NCBI GenBank assembly: GCA_016180235.1
Contig: JACPBQ010000006.1
Location: 1 to 64,000, forward strand
Reading direction: 5' to 3'
From: Candidatus Woesearchaeota archaeon
GTDB lineage: Archaea > Nanobdellota > Nanobdellia > Woesearchaeales > GW2011-AR4
Length of the DNA: 64,000 nucleotides
Positions 22,900 through 42,425 of this stretch are shown piece by piece. The number at the start of each line of letters is the position of its first letter. Positions within the stretch are counted from its first letter, which is position 1. The position numbers and the translations under genes were made by a program. The notes under the pieces are model-generated. The model was given only the letters and a program-made list of their open reading frames with translations, had not been told where the DNA came from and did no database searches.

Positions 22900-22909
22900 T
22901 AATTTAATA

Positions 22910-24621: not shown

Positions 24622-24622
24622 C

Positions 24623-26269: not shown

Positions 26270-26290
26270 AGCTGCATGTATTCCACCTAA

Positions 26291-26309: not shown

Positions 26310-26331
26310 TGGGCAGCACCAGGGAACGTAA

Positions 26332-26345
26332 AAATCTTTATAAAC
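26332..26345 (+). promoter_or_regulatory. TATA box for the 26375 epimerase
   Basis: AAATCTTTATAAAC lies 30-40 bp before the ATG at 26375 and back-to-back with the promoter at 26291-26309. Confidence 0.5.
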
Positions 26346-26374
26346 AATCCATTTATCCAAGAGCCCTAATTAAG

Positions 26375-27358
26375 ATGAAAAAAGCCATAGTAACCGGGGG
26401 TGCGGGATTTGTAGGCAGCCACATGGCAGAGCATCTGCTGGACAAAGGTTTTTCAGTTGTATCTATAGATGACATGTCCAACGGGCAATACGACAACGTC
26501 AAAATTTTCGAAGACAATCCGAATTATAAATTCCATAAGATAGACCTTTCCAAGGAATTTGATGATGCCCTTTTTGACGGGGCTGATTACGTGTTCCACA
26601 TGGCGGCCCTGGCAGACATAGTTCCATCTGTAAAGAATCCATTAAAATACCATAATGCCAATGTCAATTCAACAATTAGGGTATTGGAAGCAGGCAGAAA
26701 GCACAACATCAAAAAATTTGTCTTTAGCGGCTCCTCAACATCATACGGAATTCCTGATAAATACCCTACAGCTGAAGAAGCAGAAATAAGGCCATTGTAC
26801 CCTTATGCGTTTACAAAGCATATTGCCGAGGAGTATGTGCTTTTCTGGGGGAAACTATATAAGCTGCCTGTAATATCTTTAAGGTACTTCAACATTTTTG
26901 GGACAAGGGCAAGGTCAAACGACACTTACGGCGCTGTCTTCAAGGTCTTTCTCTCGCAGAAGCTCAATAACAAGCCGCTTACCATAGTTGGAGACGGAAA
27001 ACAGACAAGAGATTTTACTTACGTGACTGATATTGCAAGAGCAAATCTTATGGCAGCCGAATCTGAAATAAAAGATGAGATTATAAATATCGGAACCGGA
27101 AAGCCACAGTCAATAAATTATCTTGCGAAGCTGATAGGCGGCCCTACTGTAAGCGTGCCAAAGAGACCAGGGGAGCCGGACTCAACCCATGCAGACATCA
27201 CCAAGGCAAAAAAGCTGCTCAAATGGGAGCCGAAAGTATCCTTTGAGGAAGGGGTCAGGATAATGCTTGATAATATAGATTACTGGGAAAAAACGCGAGT
27301 TTGGGATGAGAAGTCTATTGCAGAGGCAACGAAAGAATGGTTCCATTATCTTAAATAA
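26375..27358 (+). CDS. NAD-dependent sugar-nucleotide epimerase (GalE/WbpP-like)
   Basis: 327 residues, extended SDR. It has VTGGAGFVGSH for NAD, DDMSNGQ after strand 2, SSTSYG, the catalytic YPYAFTK (Y-x3-K), RYFNIFG, and DGKQTRDFTYVTDIA for the nucleotide sugar. This is the pattern of UDP-glucose/UDP-GlcNAc 4-epimerases and related 4,6-dehydratases. The frame is open from 26309, but the ATG at 26375 sits at the conserved N terminus. It is monocistronic, divergent from the kinase-transketolase operon, and followed by a 299-bp AT-rich gap. Confidence 0.85.
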   Translation: MKKAIVTGGAGFVGSHMAEHLLDKGFSVVSIDDMSNGQYDNVKIFEDNPNYKFHKIDLSKEFDDALFDGADYVFHMAALADIVPSVKNPLKYHNANVNSTIRVLEAGRKHNIKKFVFSGSSTSYGIPDKYPTAEEAEIRPLYPYAFTKHIAEEYVLFWGKLYKLPVISLRYFNIFGTRARSNDTYGAVFKVFLSQKLNNKPLTIVGDGKQTRDFTYVTDIARANLMAAESEIKDEIINIGTGKPQSINYLAKLIGGPTVSVPKRPGEPDSTHADITKAKKLLKWEPKVSFEEGVRIMLDNIDYWEKTRVWDEKSIAEATKEWFHYLK

Positions 27359-27657
27359 CAAAAATGCCAAAAGAGACATCAATAAAAAATAAAATAACGA
27401 ATGCCAATACGGTTTCCAAACAGGTTCACGAATGTTTGATTATGCTAAAGAGGATATATAATTAATATTTAAAATTTTTATAATAATTCAATCCCGGCAC
27501 TTTGCCTTCAGAAAAAGATAGAGCAAAATGCAGGGAATTATTAAACAAAATTTCAATGAATAATGATATAAAGTATGCATAAAATAATGACAACGCAAAT
27601 GGTTGAGAGGTCAATTAATAAGTAATCGTCATTGTTAAAAAATCTTTATTTGAAAAA
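27359..27657. other. AT-rich intergenic gap, no gene recognised
   Basis: This stretch separates the two epimerase genes. It is AT-rich and holds only a 33-codon chance ORF. A TATA-like AATTAATAAG (27613-27622) lies 35-45 bp before the next ATG and probably serves the 27658 gene. No RNA gene or long repeat is seen. Confidence 0.5.
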
Positions 27658-28698
27658 ATGAAATCTGTATTGGTAACCGGCGGAGCGGGCTATGTGGGAT
27701 CTTCTTTAGTTCCAATCTTATTGAAAAAGGGCTATAAAGTCACTGTGCTGGACACGTTTTGGTTCTGGGATTCCGTCAAGGAATATGAGGAAGCTTTAGG
27801 CATAAAAAATAATCCAAATCTCAGAATTATTAAAGGGGATTTAAGGAACAAAGAAGATGTGAAAGCTTCATTGAAAGATGCCAATAGCGTAATACACCTG
27901 GCCTGCGTCTCCAATGATCCAAGCTCCGAGCTTGATCCAACTTTCACCCATTCTGTCAATTACAGCGGGCAGATAAACCTCATAGACCTGTCCAAGGATA
28001 TGGGGGTAAAAAACTTTGTATATGCGTCTACAAGCAGCGTCTATGGCATAAAGCAGGAGCAGAATGTGACAGAAGAGCTTGAGCTTGAGCCGCTGACACA
28101 GTACTCGCGGCTTAAAGTGGAAACAGAGCATTACCTGCTGCACAGGCTGGAAGGGGATTTCAAGGGGGTTGTAATAAGGCCTTCAACAGTATGCGGCTAT
28201 TCCCCAAGGCAGAGGCTGGATGTGGTTGTAAATATCATCACGAATCTTGCAATAAACAAGCATAAAATCACCGTTTTTGGAGGCACGCAGCTGAGGCCAA
28301 ATATCCACATCAAGGATATGGTGAGGCTGTATGAGCTGCTTTTAGAAACTCCTGCAGACAAGATTAACGGGAAAATCTATAATGCTGGCTATGAGAACCT
28401 AAAAGTTTTGGAGATAGCCAAGCTTGTAAAAGAGGTTGTAGGGAATGTGGAAGTTGAAATCCAGGAGTCAAACGACCTAAGGTCGTATCATGTCTGCTCT
28501 GACAAAATAAAGAATGAGCTGGGGTTTGAGGCCAAGCACAGCGTAAAGGAGGCAATTACAGACCTTAAGAAATCATTTGAAAATGGCCTAATAAAAGATA
28601 TAGATGACGACAGGTATTACAACGTGAAAAGGATGAAAAATATAATTGCAAGCCACAATACATGGAAAAAATCAGCCGAAACCCCTGAAACTCATTAA
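27658..28698 (+). CDS. NAD-dependent epimerase/dehydratase (extended SDR)
   Basis: 346 residues. It has LVTGGAGYVGSS, DTFWFW after strand 2, HLACVSNDPSSELDP, ASTSSVYG, the catalytic Y-x3-K in QYSRLK, and VIRPSTVCGYSPRQRLDV. The last block marks a subgroup of sugar-nucleotide SDRs common in O-antigen and capsule clusters. It is followed 31 bp later by an RfaE-like kinase. With the transketolase and the nucleotidyltransferase-HAD fusion, it probably belongs to a pathway for an unusual activated sugar. The exact reaction is unknown. Confidence 0.8.
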   Translation: MKSVLVTGGAGYVGSSLVPILLKKGYKVTVLDTFWFWDSVKEYEEALGIKNNPNLRIIKGDLRNKEDVKASLKDANSVIHLACVSNDPSSELDPTFTHSVNYSGQINLIDLSKDMGVKNFVYASTSSVYGIKQEQNVTEELELEPLTQYSRLKVETEHYLLHRLEGDFKGVVIRPSTVCGYSPRQRLDVVVNIITNLAINKHKITVFGGTQLRPNIHIKDMVRLYELLLETPADKINGKIYNAGYENLKVLEIAKLVKEVVGNVEVEIQESNDLRSYHVCSDKIKNELGFEAKHSVKEAITDLKKSFENGLIKDIDDDRYYNVKRMKNIIASHNTWKKSAETPETH

Positions 28699-28729
28699 AT
28701 TTAAAAATCAAAATTAATTCCCTCTTAAA

Positions 28730-29773
28730 ATGGAAAAGGCAGAAATCATAAGAAGGATAAAAGACCAGTGCTCAATCGGGCAGATAAGGGAAATAATATC
28801 CAAATTCAAGGGCATAAAGACCCTGGTAATCGGAGAGGCTATTATTGACGAGTACCATTTTGCGTCTTCAAAGGGAAGGGCAACAAAAGACCCGATCTTG
28901 TCAGTGGACTATATAAACCATGAAGTGTATGCCGGAGGAATCCTCGCGATTGCGAACCACGTAAGCAATTTTGTGGATAATCTGACTGTAGTCACGCTGA
29001 TAGGGGACAAGGAAGACAGGAAAGATTTCATATCAAGGTCCTTAAACAAGAACATTGCCCTGAAGGCATTTGTAAAGGAAAACTCGCCTACGATAATAAA
29101 AAAAAGGTACCTGGATGCCCAGCGCAATACAAAACTTTTCAAGGTTGAACACATAAACGACAGCCCAATAAATGAAGCATTGGAGGGGGAAATTGTAAGT
29201 TTCCTGGAGCTAGAGTTGCCAAAATACGACCTTGTGATAGTTGGGGATTTTGGGCACGGGTTTATAACGGAAAGAATAATCAAAGTCCTTGAGGAAAAAT
29301 CCAAATTTCTCGCTGTCAATGCCCAGTGCAACAGCGCCAATCTTGGCTATAATTTTGTTACAAAATACAACAGGGCTGATTTCCTTACCATGGACAATCA
29401 GGAACTATGGTATGCAGTATCAGACAGATTCAGCGAAGTGCCTGTCCTCATTAACAAGCTGCATAAAAAAAAGAATTTTAACAGGTTTTTAGTCACGCTG
29501 AGCAAAAGCGGCTCGGTATATTTTGACAACGGAAATCAAATTTTCTTTCCCGCGTTTGTCATGAACCCCAGGGATACCGTTGGAGCCGGAGATGCTGTTT
29601 TTTCACTTACATCCCTGTTTGCTTATACCGGCAATAATGACATGATACCTTTCATAGCCAATTGCGCAGGAGGCATTGCCGTCAGCTACATGGGCAATAA
29701 GGAATTCATAACCAAAGAGAAATTGATTGATTTTATAGAGCACGTCTATAACGGAGACCTAAAAATCCGCTAG
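28730..29773 (+). CDS. PfkB-family sugar kinase, RfaE/HldA-like (second copy)
   Basis: 347 residues, ribokinase fold. It has TLVIGEAIIDEYHF, VYAGGILAIANHVSNF for the sugar, and the ATP/anion-hole motif RDTVGAGDAVFSLTSL near residue 282. It resembles the kinase half of HldE but differs from the better-matching copy at 32929, so it may phosphorylate another heptose or related sugar phosphate. A TATA box (ATTAAATTTAAAAATC, 28694-28709) implies a leaderless message. It is convergent with the nucleotidyltransferase-HAD fusion (4-bp overlap), a likely partner. Confidence 0.8.
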   Translation: MEKAEIIRRIKDQCSIGQIREIISKFKGIKTLVIGEAIIDEYHFASSKGRATKDPILSVDYINHEVYAGGILAIANHVSNFVDNLTVVTLIGDKEDRKDFISRSLNKNIALKAFVKENSPTIIKKRYLDAQRNTKLFKVEHINDSPINEALEGEIVSFLELELPKYDLVIVGDFGHGFITERIIKVLEEKSKFLAVNAQCNSANLGYNFVTKYNRADFLTMDNQELWYAVSDRFSEVPVLINKLHKKKNFNRFLVTLSKSGSVYFDNGNQIFFPAFVMNPRDTVGAGDAVFSLTSLFAYTGNNDMIPFIANCAGGIAVSYMGNKEFITKEKLIDFIEHVYNGDLKIR

Positions 29774-30837
29774 AGCCTGTCGAATTCTTCCTTCAACTCC
29801 CGGTAATCCTTTCCTGCAGCATCTATGAACCCGGCATTTATATTTTTGGCAAGCTCAAGGTCGTCCTTGCTGTTCCCTATGATTATAATTTTATCAAACC
29901 CGTCTTTTTTCATATTCAATTCTTTAAGAGCCCTGTAAACCATACCGGGATTAGGCTTCCTCTCTGTAGTATCTTTTATAAATTCCGGCACGAATTTGGT
30001 ATTTTTCATGGCATTTGCGTATCTAATGTCCACATGAGGGCAGTACTGCCAATTATCAATTTCAATTCCTTTTTTATTCAATAATGCGGAAATGTGCCGG
30101 TTTATTGTGTCTACCATGGCGCTGCTGAAATAGCCCCTTGCAATACCTTGCTGGTTGGAAACTACAACCATTACAGCGTCATTTTTTGCTTTTATGTATG
30201 AAAGAAGATTAGCAACATCCTGGTTTAGCTTTACTTTTTCTTTCCAGCTTTCCTCTTTTCCCAAATAGCTTACATGCTCTATTAAAGTCCCGTCCCTGTC
30301 TATGGCCAATAAAATTTTTTTTCTTACTGAATTTTTTATGATGTGATTGACTATTTCCGTGGTTGACAGCTTTTCATCAGAGGTGTAAAGAATTTTTCCT
30401 CCAACAGATTTTATGACCTCTCTTTCCTCGGTTATTCCCGGGGTGCTCTTGCCTGCAAAGTCAGGGCCTTTGATATAATAAGACGGCTTTAGCTTTTTGA
30501 TCACTTCCGTGGCCTTCTCGAAATCGCTTATGACAGCATAATCAGCATACTTCAAGGACGCAACAGAATAAGCCCTCAACGCATCAGGAAAAACCGGCCT
30601 TCCGGCGCCTTTTCTCAAACTTACAAATCTGTCGGATGTTACGGAAACAAAAAGGCAGTCGCACAGCTTGGATGCGGATTCCAGGTGCTTGATATGGCCG
30701 GGATGCATAAGATCGAAGGCGCCATGGCACAGGCCAACTGCCTTGCCTGCTGATTTTAATTTTGCTATTATCCTCGCTGCTTCAGCCATGCCTACAATCT
30801 TATCCGACTTGTAGCTATCTAATCTTGCTTTGATCAT
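29770..30837 (-). CDS. Sugar-phosphate nucleotidyltransferase fused to HAD-IIIA (GmhB-like) phosphatase
   Basis: 355 residues with two domains. Residues 30-170 form an RfaE2/cytidylyltransferase-like domain with HGAFDLMHPGH (H45-x2-H48), GAGRPVFP, YIKGPDF and the C-terminal STTEIV. Residues 173-355 form a HAD phosphatase with LAIDRDGTLI (D180, D182), VVSNQQGIARG and ERKPNPGM, resembling GmhB but with a single YCPH where GmhB has its zinc cysteines. The order GmhB reaction then nucleotidyl transfer would make this a bifunctional step, converting a sugar bisphosphate to an NDP-sugar. It is the counterpart of the separate genes at 31656 and 32367. Confidence 0.8.
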   Translation of the reverse strand: MIKARLDSYKSDKIVGMAEAARIIAKLKSAGKAVGLCHGAFDLMHPGHIKHLESASKLCDCLFVSVTSDRFVSLRKGAGRPVFPDALRAYSVASLKYADYAVISDFEKATEVIKKLKPSYYIKGPDFAGKSTPGITEEREVIKSVGGKILYTSDEKLSTTEIVNHIIKNSVRKKILLAIDRDGTLIEHVSYLGKEESWKEKVKLNQDVANLLSYIKAKNDAVMVVVSNQQGIARGYFSSAMVDTINRHISALLNKKGIEIDNWQYCPHVDIRYANAMKNTKFVPEFIKDTTERKPNPGMVYRALKELNMKKDGFDKIIIIGNSKDDLELAKNINAGFIDAAGKDYRELKEEFDRL

Positions 30838-30906: not shown

Positions 30907-31602
30907 CTAATCAACGAAACGGTACTTTATGAGATAATAAAGGGCCTTGAGGCCATCCACCCATGTTATTTTCTTCCCTTCGCTGAATTTCCTTCCCATG
31001 AAATCTATTGGAATTTCCTTTATCCTGTAGCCCCTTTTCAGGATTTTTGATGTTATCTCGGGCTCAAAATCAAACCTTCTGGCCTTTAGCTTCATTCCTT
31101 CAATAACTTCTTTCCTGAAAACCTTGTAGCCGGTCTCCATGTCAGTTATCCTTGCGCCGTATAAAACATTAGTCATGACTGTCAGGAAAACATTCCCGAA
31201 ATAATGCAATTTATACATATTCTTCAGATTTTTCCTTATTGACTCCAGCCTTGAGCCATAAACCACTTTAGCCTCATTTTTAATTATCGGCTTCAATAAT
31301 CCAGGATATTCTTTAGGGCTGTATTCAAGGTCTGCATCCTGTATAAGCATTATATCCCCGGCAGCATGCTGCAATCCAGTCCTTATAGCAGCGCCTTTTC
31401 CCATGTTTTTTCTGTGGAAGAATATCTTTATTCCTTTGCTTTTTATTCTTGACAATATTTCCCTTGTCCTGTCTTGGGAAAAATCATCAACTACTATAAT
31501 CTCCTTTGTTATTTTGCCAATTCTTTGGCTTTTTACCTTATTGATTACCTTTAATATTGTCTTTTCCTCGTTGTATGCCGGGATTATTATGGACAGTTTC
31601 AT
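30907..31602 (-). CDS. Polyprenol-phosphate sugar synthase-like GT2
   Basis: 231 residues of GT2 with LSIIIPAYNEEKTI, VDDFSQDRT, GKGAAIRTG, and the metal site IQDADLEYSP. The central ITDMETGYKVFRKEV is the block found in archaeal/bacterial Dol-P-glucose and undecaprenyl-P-sugar synthases. There is no obvious membrane domain. A TATA-like CTTTTTAAATC on the minus strand at 31622-31634 suggests its own promoter, separate from the hldC-like gene upstream. Confidence 0.85.
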   Translation of the reverse strand: MKLSIIIPAYNEEKTILKVINKVKSQRIGKITKEIIVVDDFSQDRTREILSRIKSKGIKIFFHRKNMGKGAAIRTGLQHAAGDIMLIQDADLEYSPKEYPGLLKPIIKNEAKVVYGSRLESIRKNLKNMYKLHYFGNVFLTVMTNVLYGARITDMETGYKVFRKEVIEGMKLKARRFDFEPEITSKILKRGYRIKEIPIDFMGRKFSEGKKITWVDGLKALYYLIKYRFVD

Positions 31603-31655: not shown

Positions 31656-32138
31656 TTATTTGTACTTTTCCACGATTTTGCGTATGAAACTGGTTGTTGA
31701 GTAGCCCTTCACTTCAGGAATCAAAACAACTTTGCCATTATTCTTTTCCACAATCTCTTTTTCAATAATTTTTTCAATTTTATAATCCCCGCCTTTGACA
31801 TGAATGTTTGGCTTTATCACATCAAGAATTTTTACAGGGTTTTCCTCAGAAAAAATTGTGACATAATCAACACACTGTAATGCTGCAAGGGCTTCTGCCC
31901 TGTCGCTTTCATTGTTTAAAGGCCTTCTTGGATCTTTTATTTTCTTTACCGAGCTGTCTGAGTTTACTGCCACTATTAAAGCATCTCCAAGCTTTTTGGC
32001 CTGCTGCAGATACCTTATGTGGCCGATGTGAAGAATGTCAAAGACGCCATTTGTTGTTACAATTTTTTTGTTTTCTTTTTTTAGGGTTTTGACTATTACC
32101 TTTAATTCGCTGATTGTTTTTATTTTACTTTTTGACAT
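31656..32138 (-). CDS. hldC: D-glycero-beta-D-manno-heptose-1-phosphate adenylyltransferase-like
   Basis: 160 residues, the size of the stand-alone second half of HldE (RfaE2/HldC). It joins ATP and heptose-1-phosphate to give ADP-heptose. It has TTNGVFDILHIGH (H37-x2-H40), VAVNSDSSVKKIKDPRRP, ALQCVDYVTIFSEENP, HVKGGDYK and the terminal GYSTTSFIRKI. These are the conserved blocks of the family (compare the GLSTT motif). It lies 228 bp downstream of gmhB, with a palindromic element in the gap, and may be transcribed with the hldD-hldA-gmhB set or alone. Confidence 0.85.
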   Translation of the reverse strand: MSKSKIKTISELKVIVKTLKKENKKIVTTNGVFDILHIGHIRYLQQAKKLGDALIVAVNSDSSVKKIKDPRRPLNNESDRAEALAALQCVDYVTIFSEENPVKILDVIKPNIHVKGGDYKIEKIIEKEIVEKNNGKVVLIPEVKGYSTTSFIRKIVEKYK

Positions 32139-32366: not shown

Positions 32367-32936
32367 TTATTTGTGAACAGTATTGGCATTTTTATTGTTA
32401 TGGTTTATTATGAATTCTGCTGCCTGCAAAAAATCCCGGGCAATGAAATCCGGCTTTATGTTTTTTTCCTTCAGCTCATTGAGGCGCTTTTTTCCCTGGC
32501 CCGTCAGCATATAAACCGTCCTGCAGCCTGAATTTTTCCCCATTTCAGCATCAATGGGCTTGTCCCCTATAACCCAGGAGCCCTTTACATCTATCTTAAA
32601 TTCTTTTGCAGCCTCTTTTATGTATTTTACGCTTGGCTTCCTGCAATCGCAGATTTGTTCAGGAGCATGCGGGCAAAAATATATTTTTTTTATTTCTATC
32701 CTGCTTTTTTTAAGCTCTTCAATCAGCTTTTTGTTGAATTTGTGCATATCCTCTTCCGTATGGATGCCCCTTCCAATGCCGGACTGGTTTGTAATAATGA
32801 TGAAAATGAACTCTTTTGAAAGCAATTTGAGGCCATTAATGACGCCGGGTATTATCTTCAAATCTTCCAGCTTAAATGCATAGCCTATATCCTCGGTTAT
32901 TGTACCATCCCTGTCCAAAAAGCAGGCCTTAACCAT
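32367..32936 (-). CDS. gmhB: D,D-heptose-1,7-bisphosphate 7-phosphatase
   Basis: 189 residues, HAD-IIIA family. It removes the 7-phosphate from heptose-1,7-bisphosphate. Motif I is FLDRDGTI (D8, D10), motif II is IITNQSGIGRG, the zinc loop is C88-x-H90-x5-C96-x-C98 (CPH...CDCRKP), and WVIGDKPIDAEMG is the late acidic motif. The complete zinc loop supports GmhB or the closely related histidinol phosphatase; the adjacent hldA and hldD settle on heptose. It overlaps the hldA stop by 8 bp. Confidence 0.9.
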   Translation of the reverse strand: MVKACFLDRDGTITEDIGYAFKLEDLKIIPGVINGLKLLSKEFIFIIITNQSGIGRGIHTEEDMHKFNKKLIEELKKSRIEIKKIYFCPHAPEQICDCRKPSVKYIKEAAKEFKIDVKGSWVIGDKPIDAEMGKNSGCRTVYMLTGQGKKRLNELKEKNIKPDFIARDFLQAAEFIINHNNKNANTVHK

Positions 32937-33906
32937 TTTCTATGCTCTTCTTTAACTCGTCAATGCTTACGGTTGAAGTGCCGACTTTTCCAACAACGAT
33001 TCCGGCCGCATAATTCGCGATTACTGCGGATTCTTCAAGAGATGCCCCTGACGCCAAAGCCAGGGTAAGTGCAGCAACTGAGGTGTCTCCTGCCCCTATT
33101 ATGTCATAAACCTCTTTTGCAAATGTAGGTATGTGCGTTATTCTGCCGTTCTTCTCGAACAAAGACATCCCCTTTTCGCCCCTTGTTATCAGTATGTTGC
33201 TGTCCAAGTCCTTGAGCAATCTGTTTCCCAGGCTTTCGACATCTTCCCTTGCGTTCCCTTCCTCCTGGATTCCTGCCATGCTATGGGCTTCTGAATGATT
33301 GGGAGTAATTAAATCCACATTCCTGTAGAATTCCTTGTTCTTCGGCTTGGGGTCAACAACTATGCTTTTGCTGTTTTCTTTGCACAATTCCTTTAGCTTT
33401 TCCATCAATGCTCTTGTTACAACGCCCTTTGCGTAATCAGAAACAATCACAGCATCTACACTCTTTATCCTGCCCTTTAAAAAATCAAGAATCTTGTTTT
33501 CTGTTGCTTTGCCGACATACCCTTTCTTTTCGTAGTCAAACCTCAAAAGCTGCTGGCTTTTCCCGAAAACCCTCACTTTCCTTATTGTCCTCTTGCTTTC
33601 ATCAACAATCAGGCCGCTGACATCTATGCCTCTTTTTTTCAATTCCTCAACAAGCTCATCTTTTGTCGTGTCATTCCCCACAATGCCGACCATTATCACT
33701 TTTGAGCCCAAAGCTGCTATGTTGTTTGCGACATTTGCCGCTCCGCCAGGGGAATAGCTTTCATCAGTCACTTCAACAATCTGCACAGGAGCCTCTGGAC
33801 TTATCCTTTCAACATCCCCCCAGATGTACTTGTCAAGCATTACATCGCCTATTACAAGGATATTCTTATTTTTGAAATTGCCGATAATTTTTATCAGATC
33901 CTGCAT
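32929..33906 (-). CDS. hldA: D-glycero-beta-D-manno-heptose-7-phosphate kinase
   Basis: 325 residues, matching the kinase half of HldE. It has VIGDVMLDKYIWGDVERISPEAPV near the N terminus, SPGGAANVANNIAALG, KVRVFGKSQQLLRFD, and the catalytic IIGAGDTSVAALTLAL near the C terminus. The first two blocks are almost diagnostic of RfaE1. Upstream in-frame ATGs at 33930 and 33921 overlap hldD; the ATG at 33904-33906 has GGTGA 5 nt upstream and leaves a 4-bp gap after the hldD stop, so it is preferred. Second enzyme of the ADP-heptose pathway, phosphorylating C1. Confidence 0.92.
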   Translation of the reverse strand: MQDLIKIIGNFKNKNILVIGDVMLDKYIWGDVERISPEAPVQIVEVTDESYSPGGAANVANNIAALGSKVIMVGIVGNDTTKDELVEELKKRGIDVSGLIVDESKRTIRKVRVFGKSQQLLRFDYEKKGYVGKATENKILDFLKGRIKSVDAVIVSDYAKGVVTRALMEKLKELCKENSKSIVVDPKPKNKEFYRNVDLITPNHSEAHSMAGIQEEGNAREDVESLGNRLLKDLDSNILITRGEKGMSLFEKNGRITHIPTFAKEVYDIIGAGDTSVAALTLALASGASLEESAVIANYAAGIVVGKVGTSTVSIDELKKSIENG

Positions 33907-33910
33907 TTTT

Positions 33911-34819
33911 TCACCAGCCATTTTTATCAAGCCATTTCATATAATCCCTGATGCCTTCCTTTAATTCCCATTTTGCCCTGAAGCCTATAAGCTTTTCTGC
34001 CTTTTTGGTATCTGCCTGCGTATCTGCCTGGTAGGTTTTTGGGTCGTAAGGCATGTCAAAGTATTCAGGCTCAAAATCAGTTTTTAAAATACCATTCAAT
34101 ATTTTTATTAATTCATTAAAATCAGTTGCGATGCCTGTTCCGACATTGACAATGCAGCTTTTTTTTGCATTTGCGGCTTTTATCGTCGCATCGACAGCAT
34201 CCTTGACATAAATATGGTCTCGCTTCTGCTCCCCGAACTTAAAAATCCTGGGATTTTTCCCTGATCTTATCTGCTTTGCCAGATGGTAGACCATTGAAGC
34301 CGGCCTTCCCTTGAATTTTTCCCTTGGGCCGAAGACATTAAAGTACCTTAAGCCGACAATGTTCATTTTTTCAAATAATTTTTCTGCCATCCTGTCGATT
34401 TCTAATTTGGATTTTCCGTATGCGCTCAATATTTCTTTTTCCTGGTCTTCCCGCATGGGGACTTTTCCGTTTCCGTATAATCCTGCAGTAGAGGCATAGA
34501 CTAATTTCGCATTATTTTTCTGAGCCAATTTTATCATGTTTTTAAAACCATTAATGTTTTTATTGTAAGTTTCCTCATCATCAGGGTAACGGGGATCTGT
34601 TATAGCAGCCTGATGGAATATCACATCAAATTTTCCATCAATCATAAAATCCTTATCAGAGACATCAGCCTCAATTATTTTTCCATTAAAGCCCTTTAAA
34701 TTATCCTTATTCCCGGATAGAAAATTGTCAACTGCCGTGACTTCATTCCCTAATTTCTCCAATTCTAATGCCAGATTAGAGCCTATGAATCCTGCTCCTC
34801 CGGTTACAAGACATTTCAT
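33911..34819 (-). CDS. hldD: ADP-glyceromanno-heptose 6-epimerase-like SDR
   Basis: 302 residues, slightly shorter than E. coli HldD. It has LVTGGAGFIGSN, a YASTAGLYG strand, Y134-x3-K138 (YGKSK), RYFNVFGPREKFKGRPAS and FGEQKRDHIYVKDAVD. The PREKxKGxxAS block and the KRDxIYVKD block are characteristic of HldD rather than GalE. It interconverts D,D- and L,D-ADP-heptose using bound NADP. It overlaps the cupin gene by 4 bp and hldA follows at 4 bp, placing it in the middle of the heptose operon. Confidence 0.85.
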   Translation of the reverse strand: MKCLVTGGAGFIGSNLALELEKLGNEVTAVDNFLSGNKDNLKGFNGKIIEADVSDKDFMIDGKFDVIFHQAAITDPRYPDDEETYNKNINGFKNMIKLAQKNNAKLVYASTAGLYGNGKVPMREDQEKEILSAYGKSKLEIDRMAEKLFEKMNIVGLRYFNVFGPREKFKGRPASMVYHLAKQIRSGKNPRIFKFGEQKRDHIYVKDAVDATIKAANAKKSCIVNVGTGIATDFNELIKILNGILKTDFEPEYFDMPYDPKTYQADTQADTKKAEKLIGFRAKWELKEGIRDYMKWLDKNGW

Positions 34820-35175
34820 TCTCCCAGCCCCAGCCTGTCCAAATCAACCTTTCCTGACAGCTCATCCCTGTATGAGTCAGAATCTTCATGATGCGTTGAG
34901 AATTCCATTATTTCGCTGTTTTCCAGGCCAGTGAAGCGGTGCTTTGCGCCAGGAGGTATCCATACTGAATCATTGGGAAGCATTACCTGCTTTTTCATGC
35001 CTATCTCAATCAAAACTTTTCCCTTCAGCACATAGAAAGTCTCGTCCTTCTTTTTATGGTGGTGCATTGAGCATCTAAATCCTTTTTTTAGGATAAGCTT
35101 TTTTCCGCAATAATCTCTATTTACAATCCACTCTTCAGAACCCCAAACTTTTGGTACAATCTTATGCTCTGTCAT
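34816..35175 (-). CDS. Cupin, mannose-6-phosphate isomerase type II-like
   Basis: 119 residues, single cupin domain. It has MHHHKKKDETFYVLKGKV with metal-binding histidines and a Glu, WIPPGAKHRFTGLENSEIMEFSTHH with another His pair, and the N-terminal PKVWGSEEWIVN found in ManC C-terminal domains and WbuC-like cupins. It could isomerise a phosphorylated or nucleotide sugar. It is the first gene of the cupin-hldD-hldA-gmhB operon, so it may act on a heptose or on mannose for the same glycan. It is divergent from the RHH-nucleotidyltransferase fusion. Confidence 0.8.
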   Translation of the reverse strand: MTEHKIVPKVWGSEEWIVNRDYCGKKLILKKGFRCSMHHHKKKDETFYVLKGKVLIEIGMKKQVMLPNDSVWIPPGAKHRFTGLENSEIMEFSTHHEDSDSYRDELSGKVDLDRLGLGE

Positions 35176-35188: not shown

Positions 35189-35205
35189 GTATGACTAGTT
35201 CATAC
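35189..35205. promoter_or_regulatory. Operator-like palindrome 1 (heptose operon side)
   Basis: GTATGACTAGTTCATAC has 6-bp arms GTATGA/TCATAC. It lies between the TATA box and the start of the cupin gene, overlapping the expected transcription start, where a bound repressor would block the polymerase. Its left half AGTATGACTA recurs in the second site at 35254. Confidence 0.6.
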
Positions 35206-35210: not shown

Positions 35211-35229
35211 AATATATAAAGTTTTCGGT
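35211..35229 (-). promoter_or_regulatory. BRE/TATA of the cupin-hldD-hldA-gmhB operon
   Basis: On the minus strand ACCGAAAACTTTATATATT provides a BRE (ACCGAAAA) and TATA, 36-54 bp upstream of the cupin ATG. The BRE is mirrored at 35238-35245, so TTTTCGGT/ACCGAAAA forms an inverted repeat between the two promoters. Confidence 0.65.
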
Positions 35230-35237: not shown

Positions 35238-35255
35238 ACCGAAAAATATAAAAAG
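35238..35255 (+). promoter_or_regulatory. BRE/TATA of the RHH-nucleotidyltransferase gene
   Basis: ACCGAAAAATATAAAAAG ends 27 bp before the ATG at 35283 and uses the same BRE as the opposing operon. Confidence 0.65.
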
Positions 35256-35281
35256 TATGACTAATTACTACTATTTCATAC
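35255..35281. promoter_or_regulatory. Operator-like palindrome 2 (regulator side)
   Basis: GTATGA (35255-35260) and TCATAC (35276-35281) flank the expected transcription start of the RHH-fusion gene, directly after its TATA box. The left half shares 12 of 13 bases with site 1. The pair of sites suggests joint repression of both divergent units. Confidence 0.55.
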
Positions 35282-35282: not shown

Positions 35283-36032
35283 ATGTCCAAACCTAAGATC
35301 GCTATTAGCCTTGATAAGAACCTGCTTAACCTTGTAGACAGCAAGGTAGACGGCAATGTGATAAGATCAAGGAGCCAGGCAGTAGAGTTTTTCCTCAGAA
35401 GAGGACTGCAGGGGCAGTCAGTCAATACCGCGGTTTTGCTAATCAAGGGAGAGCACCAGAAAAATATGCTCAAGAGGCTGAAGGGAAAGACACTTATAAA
35501 AACCCAACTGGATTTTTTCAATAAATACGGAATCAGCAATGTTTTCATTGTAACCCAGCACACCAAGGACATAAATCTTCTGTTAAACGAAATATCCGGC
35601 TCTGATATCAATGTCGAAATTGCAGAGACCGACGCAAGAGGAAATGCGCAGGCCCTGCTGGCAATCAAGGACAAGGTAAAAAACAGTTTTATTGCGATGT
35701 CAGGCGATATCTACAACAATTTTGACCTGCTTAAAATGATCAAAAAGCACATAGAGATTGATAAATTGGCAACTATGGGGCTTATGACAAGGGAAAAAAT
35801 TACAGGATACGGAACAGCAATACTTGACGGGGACCTTATTGTGGACTTCCAGGAGAAGCCGAAGCAAAGCTCGACAAACATAGTAAATGCCGGAATCTAT
35901 ATCTTCAAGCCCGAAGTCTTCGAGCTTTTTGAGAATGTCAGCAGCCTGGAAAAAGACCTGTTTTCAAAACTGGCAAGAATGAAGCAATTAGCGGGATTTT
36001 TTACTTACGGGGAATATGAGCATTTGGGGTGA
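35283..36032 (+). CDS. Ribbon-helix-helix DNA-binding domain fused to degenerate sugar nucleotidyltransferase
   Basis: 249 residues. Residues 4-42 (KIAISLDKNLLNLVDSK, then RSRSQAVEFFLRRGL) have the strand-helix-helix pattern of CopG/Arc-type repressors. Residues 48-249 follow the GlmU/RfbA-type nucleotidyltransferase fold: NTAVLLIKGEHQKNMLKRL, TLIKTQLDFFNKYGI, SGDIYNNFDLL, GYGTAI, DFQEKPK and NAGIYIFKPEVFE. The N-terminal catalytic loop, normally GGxGTRLxP...PKP, is replaced by KGEHQKNML, so pyrophosphorylase activity is doubtful while the sugar-side motifs remain. The likely role is a transcription factor that senses a sugar phosphate or nucleotide sugar, acting on the palindromes at 35189 and 35255 and so on the heptose operon. 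Confidence 0.85.
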   Translation: MSKPKIAISLDKNLLNLVDSKVDGNVIRSRSQAVEFFLRRGLQGQSVNTAVLLIKGEHQKNMLKRLKGKTLIKTQLDFFNKYGISNVFIVTQHTKDINLLLNEISGSDINVEIAETDARGNAQALLAIKDKVKNSFIAMSGDIYNNFDLLKMIKKHIEIDKLATMGLMTREKITGYGTAILDGDLIVDFQEKPKQSSTNIVNAGIYIFKPEVFELFENVSSLEKDLFSKLARMKQLAGFFTYGEYEHLG

Positions 36033-36130: not shown

Positions 36131-36265
36131 ATGCCAGAAACGGTAACTATCCCAAAAGAAGAGTATAAAAGATTAAAGAAAAAAGAAGAGATAGATACTG
36201 AACTATTAGGAGATATAGCAAAAGGCATAAAAGACGTTCTTACTGGAAAGATAAAGGAAGTTTAA
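36131..36265 (+). CDS. Small antitoxin (RelB-like, archaeal PKEEYxRLKK type)
   Basis: A 44-residue ORF. Its sequence ETVTIPKEEYKRLKKKEEID, then a helix ending GKIKEV, is the pattern of short archaeal antitoxins that accompany RelE/ParE or PIN toxins. A TATA box at the right distance and a palindrome at the ATG support expression as a leaderless gene. It is tail-to-tail with the RelE/ParE-like toxin at 36262-36576, their stops overlapping by 4 bp, an unusual orientation for a type II pair. Confidence 0.7.
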   Translation: MPETVTIPKEEYKRLKKKEEIDTELLGDIAKGIKDVLTGKIKEV

Positions 36266-36576
36266 ATCCCTTTTAATATCCGCTCTAACTCTTCCATATA
36301 AACATCGAGGTTTGCTTTTATCAGATCTATGACTTTCTGCTGGGCTTTTTTATCTGTTATTGTTATAAGAAAAATAACTTGATGATTTTCATATACCAGA
36401 AAAATCAGCCTTTTGCCGTCAAACTTCTTTTCCCTAAAAAACTTATAACCAAGAGGCTTCCCATCGTAAGGGCTTTTCTTTAGCTCCTGCTCAATGCCAC
36501 TTACCCTCTTTTGTTCTTTAGGGGTTAATTTGCTAAGTTTCTTCTCGTACCAGTCTGCCCTGAATGCACGAAACAT
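36262..36576 (-). CDS. RelE/ParE-superfamily toxin
   Basis: 104 residues. It has the RelE/ParE core: an N-terminal helix (ADWYEKKLSKL), LKKSPYDGKPLGYKFFREKKFDGKRLIFLVYENHQVIFLITI, then DKKAQQKVIDLIKANLD. The R-L-I-F-L-V-Y strand and DKK turn match archaeal members. Ribosome-dependent mRNA cleavage is the RelE activity; catalytic residues in this branch are not certain. It should be neutralised by the 44-residue protein from the opposite strand. Its own TATA-like ACTTTTTAAACAGG lies about 25 bp upstream. Confidence 0.8.
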   Translation of the reverse strand: MFRAFRADWYEKKLSKLTPKEQKRVSGIEQELKKSPYDGKPLGYKFFREKKFDGKRLIFLVYENHQVIFLITITDKKAQQKVIDLIKANLDVYMEELERILKGI

Positions 36577-36714: not shown

Positions 36715-36993
36715 TTACAGTCCTCTAAAAACGTCAGAAATATCACCTAACAATTTTTCCATAAATTTTACAAGTTTGGATTCAGGAAAAAATTTTTGAA
36801 GTAAAACTTTTGCTAATGCCAAGATTAAGATAATCGTAGAAACGACCACAAAAATAATTAAAAATGGACCTGTATTTTTTAGAAATAAGACTTCATAAAA
36901 GGAATAAACTATAAATAAAAGTAGAATTAATAATATCATAAACAAATTAAAACTATAAAATCTCCTTTTTTTAGATTTTTTAATCTTCATCAT
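36715..36993 (-). CDS. Small two-helix membrane protein
   Basis: 92 residues from the ATG at 36991-36993, chosen because GGAG lies 7 nt upstream; the longer frame to 37119 is inside the GT9 gene. A basic N terminus (KIKKSKKRRFY) is followed by two transmembrane helices (FMILLILLLFIVY; FLIIFVVVSTIILILALAKVLL) and an amphipathic tail. It overlaps the upstream GT9 gene by 14 bp and is the last gene of the GT2-DUF2304-GT9 operon. Function unknown; it may anchor the glycosyltransferases. Confidence 0.55.
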   Translation of the reverse strand: MMKIKKSKKRRFYSFNLFMILLILLLFIVYSFYEVLFLKNTGPFLIIFVVVSTIILILALAKVLLQKFFPESKLVKFMEKLLGDISDVFRGL

Positions 36994-38131
36994 TTTTATC
37001 TCCTTTTCCCTTTTCCATAATCTTTTCGGCTGCTTGGATGACATCCTGAACCTGTATCTTCCTGACGCAAGCATTCTCAAAGCCATTTTTGCATCTTCCA
37101 ACCTGGCCCTTATGGACATTTATGCAAGGCTTGCCGGTTTCTTTCCTTATAGAGATATTTTTTTTACCGAAAGGAGCGAATCTAATAGGCAGATTGCATC
37201 CAAACAATCCAATTGTCCTGACTCCCTGGGCAGCAGCAACATGCATAGGCCCGGCATCATTGCCAACAAATAACTTACAGAGCGTAATAAGATAAAACAT
37301 TTCCCTTATGCTTGTCTTTCCTGCTAAATTAAGGGAATTATCCTTGTTTTTCATAAGTTTTTGAGTTTCATCAACTAACCTTTCTTCTTCCTTATTCCCA
37401 ATAAAAATTATTTTTGCCTTATGCTTTTCAATCAAATAATCCGCTACTGCTGCAAACCTTTCCCTGGGCCATATCCTTTCCCTTACAGATTCAGCAGCGC
37501 CAATACCAAAGCCGACAATAAAATCCTTTTTTCCAATATTATGATTTTTCAATAAGCTATCAATCTTTTTCTTATCCTTGTCTGAATAATTCAGTTTTTC
37601 CAGATTTTTTACTTTTTTATCGATTCCCAACGGCTTCAGCAAGTCCATGAATGTCTGGGAAACATGCTGCGAGTCATTATAAGGCACTTTTTTCGTGTAT
37701 AATTTTGACCTTATGCCGTGGCTATAACCGATCCTTTCTTTCCCTGTAAAAAATGCAATTATAGCCGATATATTGAGGTACTCTTCCATGTCAATTACCA
37801 AATCATATCTTTTCCAATTTTTTAAAATAAAAAATAAAATAGAAAAAGGGTTTAATTTTATTATTCTTATATTATTGAGATTTCTTTTATTATAAAAAAT
37901 ATCATTTACCCTGCCTGTTGTTAAAACATCAATATTGGCATTTTTGTATTTCTGCCTAAGCTCTCTAATTGAGGGCAATGACAGGACAGTCTCTCCAAGG
38001 CCCCACAGCTGGATCAGCAGAATTTTTTTGCAGCCGGATTTTTTGATTTTTGAAGGAAAAAAAGACAGGATTAGGCAAATGAACGAGCCAACATACCTGT
38101 CCAGAAACTTAATAAGGTTGACAGATGCCAT
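36980..38131 (-). CDS. Glycosyltransferase family 9 (heptosyltransferase-like), second copy
   Basis: 383 residues. A short hydrophobic N terminus (YVGSFICLILSFFPSK) could attach it to the membrane. KKILLIQLWGLGETVLSLPSI (35-55) is the GT9 acceptor loop, GAAESVRERIWPRERFA (211-227) and NDAGPMHVAAAQG (291-303) are the donor-site blocks, with D292 and H297 as in WaaC/WaaF. An extra cysteine-containing tail (KPCINVHKGQVGRCKNG...) follows, as in many archaeal and Gram-negative members. It is in an operon with DUF2304 and a Dol-P-sugar synthase, immediately downstream of aglB. ADP-heptose is a plausible donor. Confidence 0.85.
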   Translation of the reverse strand: MASVNLIKFLDRYVGSFICLILSFFPSKIKKSGCKKILLIQLWGLGETVLSLPSIRELRQKYKNANIDVLTTGRVNDIFYNKRNLNNIRIIKLNPFSILFFILKNWKRYDLVIDMEEYLNISAIIAFFTGKERIGYSHGIRSKLYTKKVPYNDSQHVSQTFMDLLKPLGIDKKVKNLEKLNYSDKDKKKIDSLLKNHNIGKKDFIVGFGIGAAESVRERIWPRERFAAVADYLIEKHKAKIIFIGNKEEERLVDETQKLMKNKDNSLNLAGKTSIREMFYLITLCKLFVGNDAGPMHVAAAQGVRTIGLFGCNLPIRFAPFGKKNISIRKETGKPCINVHKGQVGRCKNGFENACVRKIQVQDVIQAAEKIMEKGKGDKNDED

Positions 38132-38464
38132 TTATTTTTTCTTAAGCGCGACTTGCCTTACGACTTCCTCAAGCTTCTTCTGGTTTTTCCTGACTATGGT
38201 ATAGGTGTACACAGTAATAAAAATCAGGAAAAGGAAGCCTGCAATTATGAAGAAATCAAGGGTTCTCGCAATGCTCAATGTGGAAAGAAGCGGGTCAAGA
38301 AACTGGGGAAACAGTGTTATAACAACAAACAGGGCCCAGAATACAAACCAGAAGCTGTACTCCTTTATTGTAAACTCTTTCCTCTTATAATGCAGGAAAG
38401 TATAGTACATCATAAAAAAGCCGAACAGGATTCCTAAAATCTGTATGCCCAGTATCTTTGCCAT
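38132..38464 (-). CDS. DUF2304 membrane protein
   Basis: 110 residues with three transmembrane helices and a basic cytosolic tail. The pattern FTIKEYSFWFVFWALFVVITLFP...LLSTLSIARTLDFFIIAGFLFLIF is that of DUF2304 proteins, which are regularly encoded next to short Dol-P-sugar synthases and are thought to be their membrane partners. It is separated by 5 bp from the GT2 gene upstream and abuts the GT9 gene downstream. Confidence 0.85.
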   Translation of the reverse strand: MAKILGIQILGILFGFFMMYYTFLHYKRKEFTIKEYSFWFVFWALFVVITLFPQFLDPLLSTLSIARTLDFFIIAGFLFLIFITVYTYTIVRKNQKKLEEVVRQVALKKK

Positions 38465-38469: not shown

Positions 38470-39138
38470 TTATAGATTATTCAATTTCCACAACAATAAA
38501 TTAAAAACTATTTTTATGCCGTCCAGGACTGTGGTGCCCTTGTACTTGTCTGAATAAATTGTCTCTATCGGCACTTCAGCATAAGAAAGCCTGTATTTTC
38601 CTATTTTGGCAATCATCTCGCTTTCCATGCTGTAGTCAGATGCTTTCCACCTTAATTTTTTGTAAGCATCCGAGGTAAAGGCCCTGTATCCACACTGTGA
38701 ATCCCTGATTTTTACTCCGTATAAAAACCTTATTGTTTTGTTTATGAACCAGTTTCCAAACCTCAGGATAGACGGCATGTTTCTGTTCAGTTTCCTGTAG
38801 CCAATAATCACATCATGGCTTTTGACAGCTTCCACAAACTTCGGGATTTCTTTCGGATCGTGCTGGGCGTCGGCATCTATCGCAACTATTACACCAGCAT
38901 TGTTCTTTACCGCATAATCGCAGCCGGTCTTTAATGCAGCGCCTTTCCCCAGGTTTACCAAATGCCTTAATACGACAGCACCGGCTTTTTTGGCTTCCCG
39001 GGCTGTCTTGTCTTTGCTTCCGTCGTCAACAACCACTACATGGTCCACATATTTTTTTGCCTCGCTCACTACACTAAATGTATATTTTTCTTCGTTGCGT
39101 GCAGGTATTACGGCAAATACTTTCTTTTTCATGGTCAT
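38470..39138 (-). CDS. Polyprenol-phosphate hexose synthase-like GT2
   Basis: 222 residues. It has FAVIPARNEEKYT, VVVDDGSKDKT, NLGKGAALKTG, the metal site VAIDADAQHDPKE and IRDSQCGYRAF. These are standard for small Dol-P-Man/Glc synthases; the missing membrane domain is probably provided by the DUF2304 partner encoded next. A TATA-like element on the minus strand (39151-39165) lies inside the end of aglB, so the operon may be transcribed separately as well as by read-through. Confidence 0.87.
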   Translation of the reverse strand: MTMKKKVFAVIPARNEEKYTFSVVSEAKKYVDHVVVVDDGSKDKTAREAKKAGAVVLRHLVNLGKGAALKTGCDYAVKNNAGVIVAIDADAQHDPKEIPKFVEAVKSHDVIIGYRKLNRNMPSILRFGNWFINKTIRFLYGVKIRDSQCGYRAFTSDAYKKLRWKASDYSMESEMIAKIGKYRLSYAEVPIETIYSDKYKGTTVLDGIKIVFNLLLWKLNNL

Positions 39139-39161: not shown

Positions 39162-42100
39162 TTATTGGGTGTTTCCAGAATCATTTGCGGCTGAATCAGG
39201 CACGCTATCACCGGCTTCTTCTGCCTGGATTGCCTGTTTTTCCGCCTCAGGAACCTGAACAGATTCTATGACATTTTTTTCTTTCCCTTCCCAGTCAACT
39301 TTCCATACTATTATCCTGTTCCCAAAGATGCTTCTTTCATCGCTGAATTTCTTGAAATATCTTAAGCCGATGCCGTCCTGATAGAACAGCCTTGTGAACA
39401 TTGATGCTGTAAGGTCGGAGTCCATGGCAACAGCGCTGTAGCTTTCCCCGTCTTTTACCAAGGCAATCCCAATCTGCCTGCCGCTGCCCAATGGGATAGT
39501 GGATTCATCGTATTGCTTTACTGTTATCCCGTCTTCTCCGGGAAAAGATATCTTGTGGGGGTGCAGCCTTCCGGAAGTTGTCTCTGCATAGGCCTCGTGG
39601 GCTTTTGGGTTGACTACCAAAGGTATGCCCCCTATGCTGCAGCCAAATGTTTCATTGCCTGTTCCTGAGCAGCCTGCTGCGCCTGCAAAGCCGGGCCAAG
39701 GAGCAATCCAGCTGTTGGCCTGTTCGGAATTTGTTATCGACTGTACCTCATAATATAAGTTTTCTGCATCCTTGCCGGAATAGTTCCTTTCCTGGAGGAA
39801 TTTGACGCTCTTTTCCGGATTTCCCTCATATTCCTTCTTCTTCAAGGTGTTGTAAATCAATGCCCTTTCAAAATCCCAGCTGCCAAAATGAGCCCATACG
39901 CCGCTTTTTCCCACCATGTCCTCGGAGGTTATGAAATAATCTTCCGGAGGCTGGCAATGAGTCTGCGAGAGTATTTTTTCAGCCTCTTCATCGCTGAATT
40001 TTTCCTTCAGGATATTCTTGGCTTTTTCCTTATTTTCAACAATTATCCCGTTAAGCAGGGAAACGGTTTTTGCCCCGTCGTTTAATTTAGTGTTTACGCT
40101 TTCAAATGCGGCTGAGCCTCCGCTGCAGTCAAGCATCCTTAAAATCCCGACAGCAGCATCCTCGTCATCTGTCAGCAGAACCTTGCCTATCCAATATGCC
40201 TGCGGCGAGTTCTGGCTGGTCCCGTCGAATGTGACCCTTCTGTCTGTCCAAAACTTGAACCAGTGGCCAAAATCCCACCATGAATTTACTATTGCATCCG
40301 GCTTTGAGTCGGATTTTATTTTTTCCAATGAGTCCTTCCATGCGTCATTGAAGTCCGTGATGCTGTTTCTTGCAGTATTCTGGGCTGATATGTACGGAGG
40401 CACCAACAGCAGCATCAAAACAACCATAACGGTGATTTTAGACACTGCCTTGTTTACGTTCAATCCCCTGGAAATCCAGGCTGATAAAAGCCTGTAGGCC
40501 TCTCCAAGCGCAATGCCAAAACCTATGGCAAATGCAGGAACCAATAAAAGAGTGAACCTGACGCCTTTGGTGCTTGCAAAAATGGTTGCAACAAACCAAA
40601 AAATCAGCAAAATTGCATATTTTATATCAATCTCCAGATCCGATTCCCAAAGCGCAATTAAAATCCTTATTGCAATCGGTATGATTATCAAAGCCAGAAA
40701 AATGTTCAGGTTTTCTATCTTGAGCAGGAAGATAATGACATACCAGGCCAAAGTCCCCAGCAAAAACCATAACTTCTCGTGCTTTCTTCTCGTTATGGTA
40801 AGTGTGATGCCTATCAGGGCAATCAGGAAAAAGAACTCTTCTCCAAGGCCAACCTGGTTTATCACATTATTCAGGGAAGCAGGGTTCTGCTCGGCTACTG
40901 TCGTAAATACATTGGGCCATATCGTCGTTATGCCGACTTCCTTGAGCTTGGCAAATCCTGCCGGATTCTCATAGAACTGCTGGAAATGGCTGTAATTTAC
41001 AAACAAAGTCACGCTTAATGCCGACACCGCAAAAAATACTGCAAAGAAGATTACTGAATTTTTTATTGCCTTTTGCTTCAGGAATCCTGTAAAGCTTGCC
41101 ATCAATTCTTTCCTGTGGACATAGCTGTAATAAATCATGTACAGAAAAGCAGAAGCTATTACAAAATCAAAAATGTACCACCAGCCGCCCCAGGTGAAGC
41201 TGAACAGCCCAACCACTATGCCGCCTGTAATGCCAAGCATTATGTTGCTTCTCAGCCTATTGGCTTCCAGGGCCTCTATAAAAATCCAGACTATAAGGAG
41301 GGGAAACAAAATATTGTAGCCGTCAGTGTCTGATATGCCTCCCATTGTCCTGACAAGGAAGGATGGATGGATTGCAACTATGACTGCAGCTATAAAGCCC
41401 CCAAAATTACCGGCAATTTTTCTTGTTATGAAAAATGCGGGTATCACAGACAAAGCCGATATCAGGATTGGCGAAAAAAATGAAACTGCTGCAAGGCTCA
41501 AATCCCTGTTGAAGAAGCTGAGGAACTTGTACAGGTAAGCCACAAAATAGGCATGGAACATATCAACAGGCACAGGCCTTCCGACAGGTGCAAGCATGCG
41601 GTTGTCCCATGGAACATTATTCCTTATCTCATCTCCAGGATGGCCGTTATCCAGGACATTCTGCGAATGCCTCATCCAAAAATAAGGGTCTATTGTCGAC
41701 AGGTAAACCAGGCCGGAATCGTCCTGCAGCTTCGACTTAAAAAAATTTGAAGTTGCTGCAATCTGCTGGTCAATCTGGGCTTTCTGCTGCTGCAGGACTT
41801 TCTGCAGCTCATTTTCAACCAAAGCGTTCCTGTTCTGGTCAGGAAGATTGGGATATTGCTGGCTTATCTGGCCGCTTATTTGTGACCTTAGGCTGTTAAT
41901 TACAGAGTCAGCAGCCCACTGGTCTGTTACAGTAATGTAAGCAGGCTGCACCCTCAGGAAAATAGAAAGGAAAATCGGTATAATCAGCAATAACAGGACC
42001 CTGTGCTTTATGAAAAAACCCTTTATCCTGCTTAAATCGACAGAAATGTCATCCTCTGATTTTTCCCTGCCTTCTTTTTTGAAAATGTTCCTGATGTTTT

Positions 42101-42425
42101 TTAGCTTTGAAAAATCCAGCGAAATCTCGTCATCATCTTTTTTTTCCTGCGCTGCTTCAGCTGCATGATGCACATGCCTGTGCTCTTTTTCTTCGTGAGT
42201 TTCTGTTTTTTTTGACTTGAATATATTCTTTATTTTTGAGAAATCTATATCTATTTCATCTTCTTCTTTTTTTTCCTGCGTTTCAATAGCATGGTTCTCT
42301 TTTTCCTTGTCTTCAGCTTCCAGAGTTTTGTTTACTTCCGGCTTCCCCTCCTTTTTTTTCCTGAAGAGATTCTTTATTTTTGACAGGTCGATAGAAATCT
42401 CATCGTCATCTTTTTTGCCTTCCAT
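39162..42425 (-). CDS. aglB: Oligosaccharyltransferase AglB/STT3
   Basis: 1087 residues. It transfers the lipid-linked glycan to Asn of N-x-S/T outside the membrane. The first ectoloop holds the acidic LSTIDPYFW, the second SDTDGYN, and the soluble domain begins with the catalytic WWDFGHW near residue 715. Thirteen or so helices lie in between. Two oddities: a cytosolic extension of about 140 residues carrying four copies of a DDEISIDLSKIKNIFK-like unit (7-22, 55-70, 98-116, 124-139) separated by Lys/Glu/His-rich linkers; and a Gln-rich coiled-coil insert after the first helix (ISQQYPNLPDQNR...QQQKAQIDQQ). It is followed by the Dol-P-sugar/GT9 operon. Confidence 0.93.
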   Translation of the reverse strand: MEGKKDDDEISIDLSKIKNLFRKKKEGKPEVNKTLEAEDKEKENHAIETQEKKEEDEIDIDFSKIKNIFKSKKTETHEEKEHRHVHHAAEAAQEKKDDDEISLDFSKLKNIRNIFKKEGREKSEDDISVDLSRIKGFFIKHRVLLLLIIPIFLSIFLRVQPAYITVTDQWAADSVINSLRSQISGQISQQYPNLPDQNRNALVENELQKVLQQQKAQIDQQIAATSNFFKSKLQDDSGLVYLSTIDPYFWMRHSQNVLDNGHPGDEIRNNVPWDNRMLAPVGRPVPVDMFHAYFVAYLYKFLSFFNRDLSLAAVSFFSPILISALSVIPAFFITRKIAGNFGGFIAAVIVAIHPSFLVRTMGGISDTDGYNILFPLLIVWIFIEALEANRLRSNIMLGITGGIVVGLFSFTWGGWWYIFDFVIASAFLYMIYYSYVHRKELMASFTGFLKQKAIKNSVIFFAVFFAVSALSVTLFVNYSHFQQFYENPAGFAKLKEVGITTIWPNVFTTVAEQNPASLNNVINQVGLGEEFFFLIALIGITLTITRRKHEKLWFLLGTLAWYVIIFLLKIENLNIFLALIIIPIAIRILIALWESDLEIDIKYAILLIFWFVATIFASTKGVRFTLLLVPAFAIGFGIALGEAYRLLSAWISRGLNVNKAVSKITVMVVLMLLLVPPYISAQNTARNSITDFNDAWKDSLEKIKSDSKPDAIVNSWWDFGHWFKFWTDRRVTFDGTSQNSPQAYWIGKVLLTDDEDAAVGILRMLDCSGGSAAFESVNTKLNDGAKTVSLLNGIIVENKEKAKNILKEKFSDEEAEKILSQTHCQPPEDYFITSEDMVGKSGVWAHFGSWDFERALIYNTLKKKEYEGNPEKSVKFLQERNYSGKDAENLYYEVQSITNSEQANSWIAPWPGFAGAAGCSGTGNETFGCSIGGIPLVVNPKAHEAYAETTSGRLHPHKISFPGEDGITVKQYDESTIPLGSGRQIGIALVKDGESYSAVAMDSDLTASMFTRLFYQDGIGLRYFKKFSDERSIFGNRIIVWKVDWEGKEKNVIESVQVPEAEKQAIQAEEAGDSVPDSAANDSGNTQ

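Follow-up and report, generated by a model that had tools for sequence, protein, structure and literature searches.

Repressors with a ribbon-helix-helix (RHH) domain (MetJ/Arc/CopG, NikR) bind palindromic half-sites through an N-terminal strand-helix-helix, and in NrtR (Nudix), ROK, BirA and PutA a transcription factor is known to pair its DNA-binding domain with a metabolic enzyme domain, active or dead, by which the ligand is read. We know of no enzyme-derived transcription factor with a sugar-1-phosphate nucleotidyltransferase as its sensor, nor of any regulator of heptose synthesis in archaea. The subject of the present analysis is a gene (35283..36032, + strand) in a 64,000-nucleotide stretch of DNA from a Candidatus Woesearchaeota archaeon (GenBank assembly GCA_016180235.1, contig JACPBQ010000006.1, positions 1 to 64,000; hereafter the window), whose 249-aa product is predicted to combine an RHH domain with a degenerate sugar nucleotidyltransferase and which lies opposite an ADP-heptose operon. 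It probably encodes a one-component, autoregulated repressor of heptose synthesis that uses a pseudo-pyrophosphorylase as its sensor.

With RHH repressors the protein shares the N-terminal strand-helix-helix, palindromic half-sites, a site offset of about one helical turn and a putative autoregulation, and, as in NikR, the RHH domain is followed by a proposed ligand-binding domain. It differs in that this domain has the GT-A fold of nucleotidyltransferases, whereas that of NikR is ACT-like, that of MetJ binds S-adenosylmethionine and CopG and Arc have none; the sequence match to these repressors is weak. The closest fold is that of GMPPB, GMPPA and VTC1/KJC, and the left-handed-helix C-terminal domain of GMPPA is absent from the window protein. 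GMPPA, a paralogue without catalytic activity, binds GDP-mannose and controls GMPPB (PMC11228364), which indicates that a nucleotidyltransferase fold can serve as a sensor, but its target is an enzyme partner rather than DNA. Archaeal enzymes of the same heptose pathway have already been reported and their role called elusive (Tang et al. as reviewed in PMC11573728 and PMC11461863), and the enzyme discussion in these two articles names no regulator. Our searches of the open-access literature found no archaeal heptose-synthesis regulator, no transcription factor whose sensor is a GT-A nucleotidyltransferase and no description of an RHH-nucleotidyltransferase fusion or of heptose in Woesearchaeota, an absence that is no proof.

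A conserved two-domain family

An earlier note on this DNA, made from the letters alone, had placed at 35283-36032 an open reading frame (ORF) for an RHH domain (residues 1-42) fused to a catalytically degenerate sugar nucleotidyltransferase. The frame is indeed open throughout, and the search for the same fusion in other genomes that the note had called for uncovered a conserved family. Scanning GTDB yielded 17 relatives of full length at 46-85% identity, all with the fusion and all from metagenome-assembled genomes (MAGs) of Woesearchaeota/Nanoarchaeota. In 288 genomes from the same order, a profile search turned up about 50 close members (class 1) as well as a second group, scoring E ~1e-35 to 1e-52, whose members mostly start with an RHH domain too. 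A tree built from 58 proteins sets class 1 apart by a branch with 99/100 support. In a phylum-wide sample, class-1 members were confined to the order, the second group extended to other parts of the class, and no listed match came from outside the class. A chance fusion or frameshift artefact is ruled out by the same fusion in dozens of independent MAGs and by the low ratio of non-synonymous to synonymous differences (pN/pS).

The RHH domain is assigned to residues 1-45 (35283..35417, + strand) on the basis of a NikR match, RHH_1 in relatives, AlphaFold2 and conservation. The AlphaFold2 model, built with 18 family members (mean pLDDT 83.5), has the layout of an RHH, with an extended N-terminal segment (strand ~4-9) before a pair of helices (12-21 and 30-44), whose ends were also placed at residues 20 and 42; the RHH β strand forms only in a dimer and the model is that of a monomer. 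K3, K5, A7, I8, L15, D19, D23, S29, R30, S31, Q32 and L38 are invariant. The profile scores are individually weak. The NikR model matches residues 5-49 (E 1.2e-3) below the NCBI cut-off, and Pfam RHH_1 was found in 12 of the 18 family members (best E 0.002), the window protein itself not being matched. When a profile of residues 1-49 was compared with PDB, the antitoxin Rv0298 and NikR were the sole hits, at non-significant E-values of 0.04 and 0.14, and Foldseek listed CdbA, SvtR and ParD2 among the best matches to the RHH piece, which is very short (E ≥ 2).

The remainder of the protein (residues 49-249; 35427..36029, + strand) is an NTP_transferase-like domain. PF00483 (NTP_transferase) matches residues 59-222 (E 1.4e-22, 81 bits) from profile position 21 onwards, i.e. 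beyond the signature loop, and the closest PDB folds are the GDP-mannose pyrophosphorylases GMPPB/GMPPA and VTC1 (Foldseek, E 9e-17, TM 0.72). NCBIfam models for archaeal GlmU (E 6e-24), RmlA, mannose-1-phosphate guanylyltransferase and the heptose-1-phosphate guanylyltransferase HddC also match, all far below their cut-offs. The alignment confirms that residues 55-63, KGEHQKNML (35445..35471, + strand), replace the catalytic GGxGTR...PKP loop, aligning with GGxGTRLxPLT..PKPLL and being 9-10 residues shorter, and the replacement is common to class 1: the loop Arg and the PKP Lys are absent from every class-1 sequence examined, a short stretch such as KGEHQ standing in their stead. The first metal Asp (D142) is kept, the second (W-x-D) is a His in nearly all class-1 members. 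The sugar-side motifs that the earlier note had recognized are equally real: E191, K192, N202, G204 and G177 (motifs EKP, NAG and YG) are invariant in the family alignment, and nearly all class-1 proteins retain G-N/T-A, D142, G177, E191-K192 and N202-Ala-Gly. A pN of 0.06-0.17 in the NTP domain against a near-saturated pS of 0.5-0.95 argues that it is under purifying selection and not decaying. We propose that the class-1 domain descends from a sugar-1-phosphate nucleotidyltransferase and is catalytically dead.

Candidate operators at both divergent promoters

The 107-bp intergenic region contains two candidate operators, neither assigned a strand, each supported by genome matches and by conservation in relatives. 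O1 (35189..35205) is a perfect palindrome, GTATGACTAGTTCATAC, of pattern GTATGAN5TCATAC, situated 14 bp from the start codon of the cupin gene that heads the heptose operon and 7 bp downstream of the operon's TATA box (TTTATATA, 35213..35220, - strand), which is identified by its sequence and conserved position and preceded by the BRE-like CCGAAAAC. O2 (35255..35281) is a 27-bp double site, GTATGACTAATTACTACTATTTCATAC, in which two 17-mers overlap at an offset of 10 bp and which ends 1 bp before the regulator ATG; the regulator's TATA box, identified by sequence, is TATAAAAA (35247..35254, + strand), with a BRE-like CCGAAAA before it. In both cases the operator begins no more than 7 bp past a BRE/TATA pair.

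Across the 1.04-Mb genome the 17-mer is matched exactly by O1 alone; each of the two parts of O2 matches with two mismatches. Two-mismatch matches do arise by chance (4 in the window versus 1.7 expected), and those elsewhere in the genome are about as frequent as matches to the reversed pattern used as a control, which gives no sign of a larger regulon there. A chance palindrome is ruled out by the uniqueness of the exact 17-mer and its conservation: exact GTATGAN5TCATAC is present in 27 of 38 upstream regions of relatives with at least 55% identity, and in 32 of them when up to one mismatch is allowed. Among 45 exact matches in 702 kb, 42 are upstream of regulator genes and the other three, by coordinate comparison, directly precede a cupin gene (L043), gmhA (L021) and a GT9 gene (L078). 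Of 26 genomes selected as carriers, 24 have the site, nearly always once (the two without it, G081 and G096, are absent from the listed class-1 matches), versus one of 26 other genomes of the order. In 37 of 39 loci it lies 1-24 bp downstream of the operon's TATA-like motif. The case for the RHH as a functional DNA-binding domain with a narrow target is made mainly by these operator data. As a side observation, the distances between operator and operon TATA box in class-1 loci cluster near 6-7 bp and 13-16 bp, about one helical turn apart.

The earlier note's heptose operon opposite the regulator holds up as well: it runs divergently on the minus strand, where the models for both HldE domains score above curated cut-offs. 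From the regulator outwards, it comprises a cupin-like protein (34816..35175; named by resemblance, no NCBIfam hit), an HldD-like ADP-heptose 6-epimerase of the short-chain dehydrogenase/reductase (SDR) type (33911..34819; TIGR02197, 260 bits, cut-off 274.6), heptose-7-phosphate kinase, HldE domain I (32929..33930; TIGR02198, 386.9 bits), a GmhB-like heptose-1,7-bisphosphate phosphatase (32367..32936; model match below cut-off) and heptose-1-phosphate adenylyltransferase, HldE domain II (31656..32138; TIGR02199, 195.3 bits). In many relatives a GmhA-type isomerase replaces the cupin-like gene as the first gene; a GmhA homologue is encoded elsewhere in the window (31% identity, 20106-20663). 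All 43 closer loci (L005-L021 and L036-L061, of which some share a genome and several end at contig ends or at the 1.5-kb flank) have a heptose-operon gene, a GT9 gene or both nearby, and more distant members mostly keep the heptose association.

Proposed mechanism and competing explanations

In the mechanism we favour, an RHH dimer would bind at two places, at GTATGAN5TCATAC between TATA box and start of the divergent ADP-heptose operon and at the 27-bp double site between the regulator's own TATA box and start codon, so that both promoters are shut off and the regulator controls itself. The NTP-like domain, devoid of a triphosphate-binding loop, would carry out no catalysis, but with the sugar-phosphate side of its pocket retained it would read the level of heptose-1-phosphate or ADP-heptose and alter DNA affinity in response. 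Repression of operon and regulator by the putatively DNA-bound 249-aa protein, rather than activation, is suggested by sites that lie over the expected transcription start at both promoters. Loss of the triphosphate loop combined with retention of the sugar-side residues is what points to the sensing of a nucleotide sugar or sugar phosphate, presumably a heptose compound. The idea of the earlier note, a transcription factor with a dead nucleotidyltransferase that controls the heptose operon, emerges well supported in that the fusion, the loop loss, the gene order and the operators are all conserved.

Several points weigh against this scenario. Profile support for the RHH assignment is consistent across methods but weak in each individual score; six of the 38 closer members have no site at up to one mismatch in their upstream region; in L087, L098, L099 and L101 the fetched stretch held no heptose gene among those queried; and since the lost loop also contributed to the nucleotide-base site, the domain might have no nucleotide-sugar ligand at all and serve oligomerisation only.

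The last point leads to the alternative that survives best, in which an autoregulated repressor of the heptose operon senses no ligand and its NTP domain is a dimer/tetramer scaffold or docks on a pathway enzyme. A domain deprived of its nucleotide loop could persist for oligomerisation, and human GMPPA is a pseudoenzyme that acts through a catalytic partner (PMC11228364). However, D142, G177, E191, K192 and N202 are invariant or nearly so, which goes beyond what a scaffold needs and makes this explanation rather unlikely. It is less probable still that the site-bound protein is an activator recruiting TBP/TFB instead of blocking initiation. Some archaeal regulators do activate from sites close to the TATA box, and in the sister class of class 1 TCATAC repeats occur upstream of it, but class-1 sites are downstream of the TATA box and over the expected transcription start on both sides. 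A bifunctional enzyme whose altered active site still yields a nucleotide sugar might be imagined from the 81 bits against PF00483 and the intact loops of sister-clade fusions. It is very improbable given that no class-1 member examined has the loop Arg or the PKP Lys, that the loop is 9-10 residues shorter, that the W-x-D Asp has become His in nearly all members and that the operon already has its own adenylyltransferase, HldE-II. Finally, the reading that the gene encodes an antitoxin, or a stray regulator, partnered with the RelE-like ORF (36262-36576) and next to heptose genes by coincidence is scarcely credible and was rejected, because although RHH domains are common in antitoxins and this ORF is only 230 bp downstream, the RelE-like protein is unmatched in the loci of all 17 relatives, whereas the heptose genes and operators are matched.

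Sister fusions and neighbouring genes

The autoregulated heptose repressor proposed here has intact-loop sister fusions, in the same order and elsewhere in the class, that share its two domains and the upstream half-site TCATAC. They differ from it by a GGxGTR...PK loop and W-x-D kept in most, a C-terminal extension, a phosphomannomutase-like neighbour and direct repeats in place of a palindrome. In the sister class the full catalytic loop is kept in L066, L069, L071, L077, L083 and L103, while others are degenerate in different ways, and upstream regions in many cases carry TCATACnnnATCATAC-type direct repeats with a 10-bp period. The fusions of L066, L069 and L071 precede a phosphomannomutase/phosphoglucomutase-like gene, and the L066 and L069 loci also hold FBPase-, aldolase- and GAPDH-like genes (all named by resemblance). 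Judging by their sequences, the intact-loop fusions may be active enzymes that also regulate, possibly trigger enzymes. Two smaller sets were also seen. In L074, L075 and L076, three cases only, position 7 is Ser (KISI/VSIS) and TCCTAC half-sites replace TCATAC, a possible specificity change; L072, L073 and L084 form a third clade of RHH-NTP proteins, whose loops are of the GGEESRLK type and whose genes lie close to those for SDR and GT2 proteins.

Further genes on the minus strand surround the regulator. Beyond HldE domain II lies a GT2 glycosyltransferase of AglJ/dolichyl-phosphate type (30907..31602; model search). On the other side are four neighbours conserved in relatives: a GT9 heptosyltransferase-like protein (36980..38131) and an AglB/STT3 oligosaccharyltransferase (39162..42425), both from model searches and relatives' loci, a DUF2304-like membrane protein (38132..38464; by resemblance, no NCBIfam hit) and a GT2 protein of dolichyl-phosphate sugar synthase type (38470..39138; by resemblance and relatives' loci). 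The RelE-like ORF, also on the minus strand, is convergent with a 44-aa ORF at ~36131-36265 (+ strand) and not conserved in relatives. A second heptose-like gene set occupies 20094-30837 of the window, with a GmhA-like isomerase (20094-20675), two SDR epimerases, transketolase halves (22910-23830 and 23827-24672) that could supply sedoheptulose-7-phosphate, a PfkB kinase (28730-29773) and a fused HldE-II and GmhB-like protein (29770-30837).

Taken as a whole, the nanoarchaeal RHH-nucleotidyltransferase family may, with somewhat better than even odds, record the stepwise turning of a biosynthetic enzyme into a nucleotide-sugar-responsive transcription factor, from apparently active trigger enzymes beside phosphomannomutase (GDP-mannose-type) to fully dead sensors for heptose and other sugars, with TCATAC/TCCTAC-type sites at their own promoters. 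Class 1 and its intact sister clade would then offer a natural series from enzyme to regulator, and the sharply defined candidate operator makes the case directly testable. The locus further connects heptose of bacterial type with AglB-type protein glycosylation in DPANN archaea, a group about whose surface glycans little has been learned.
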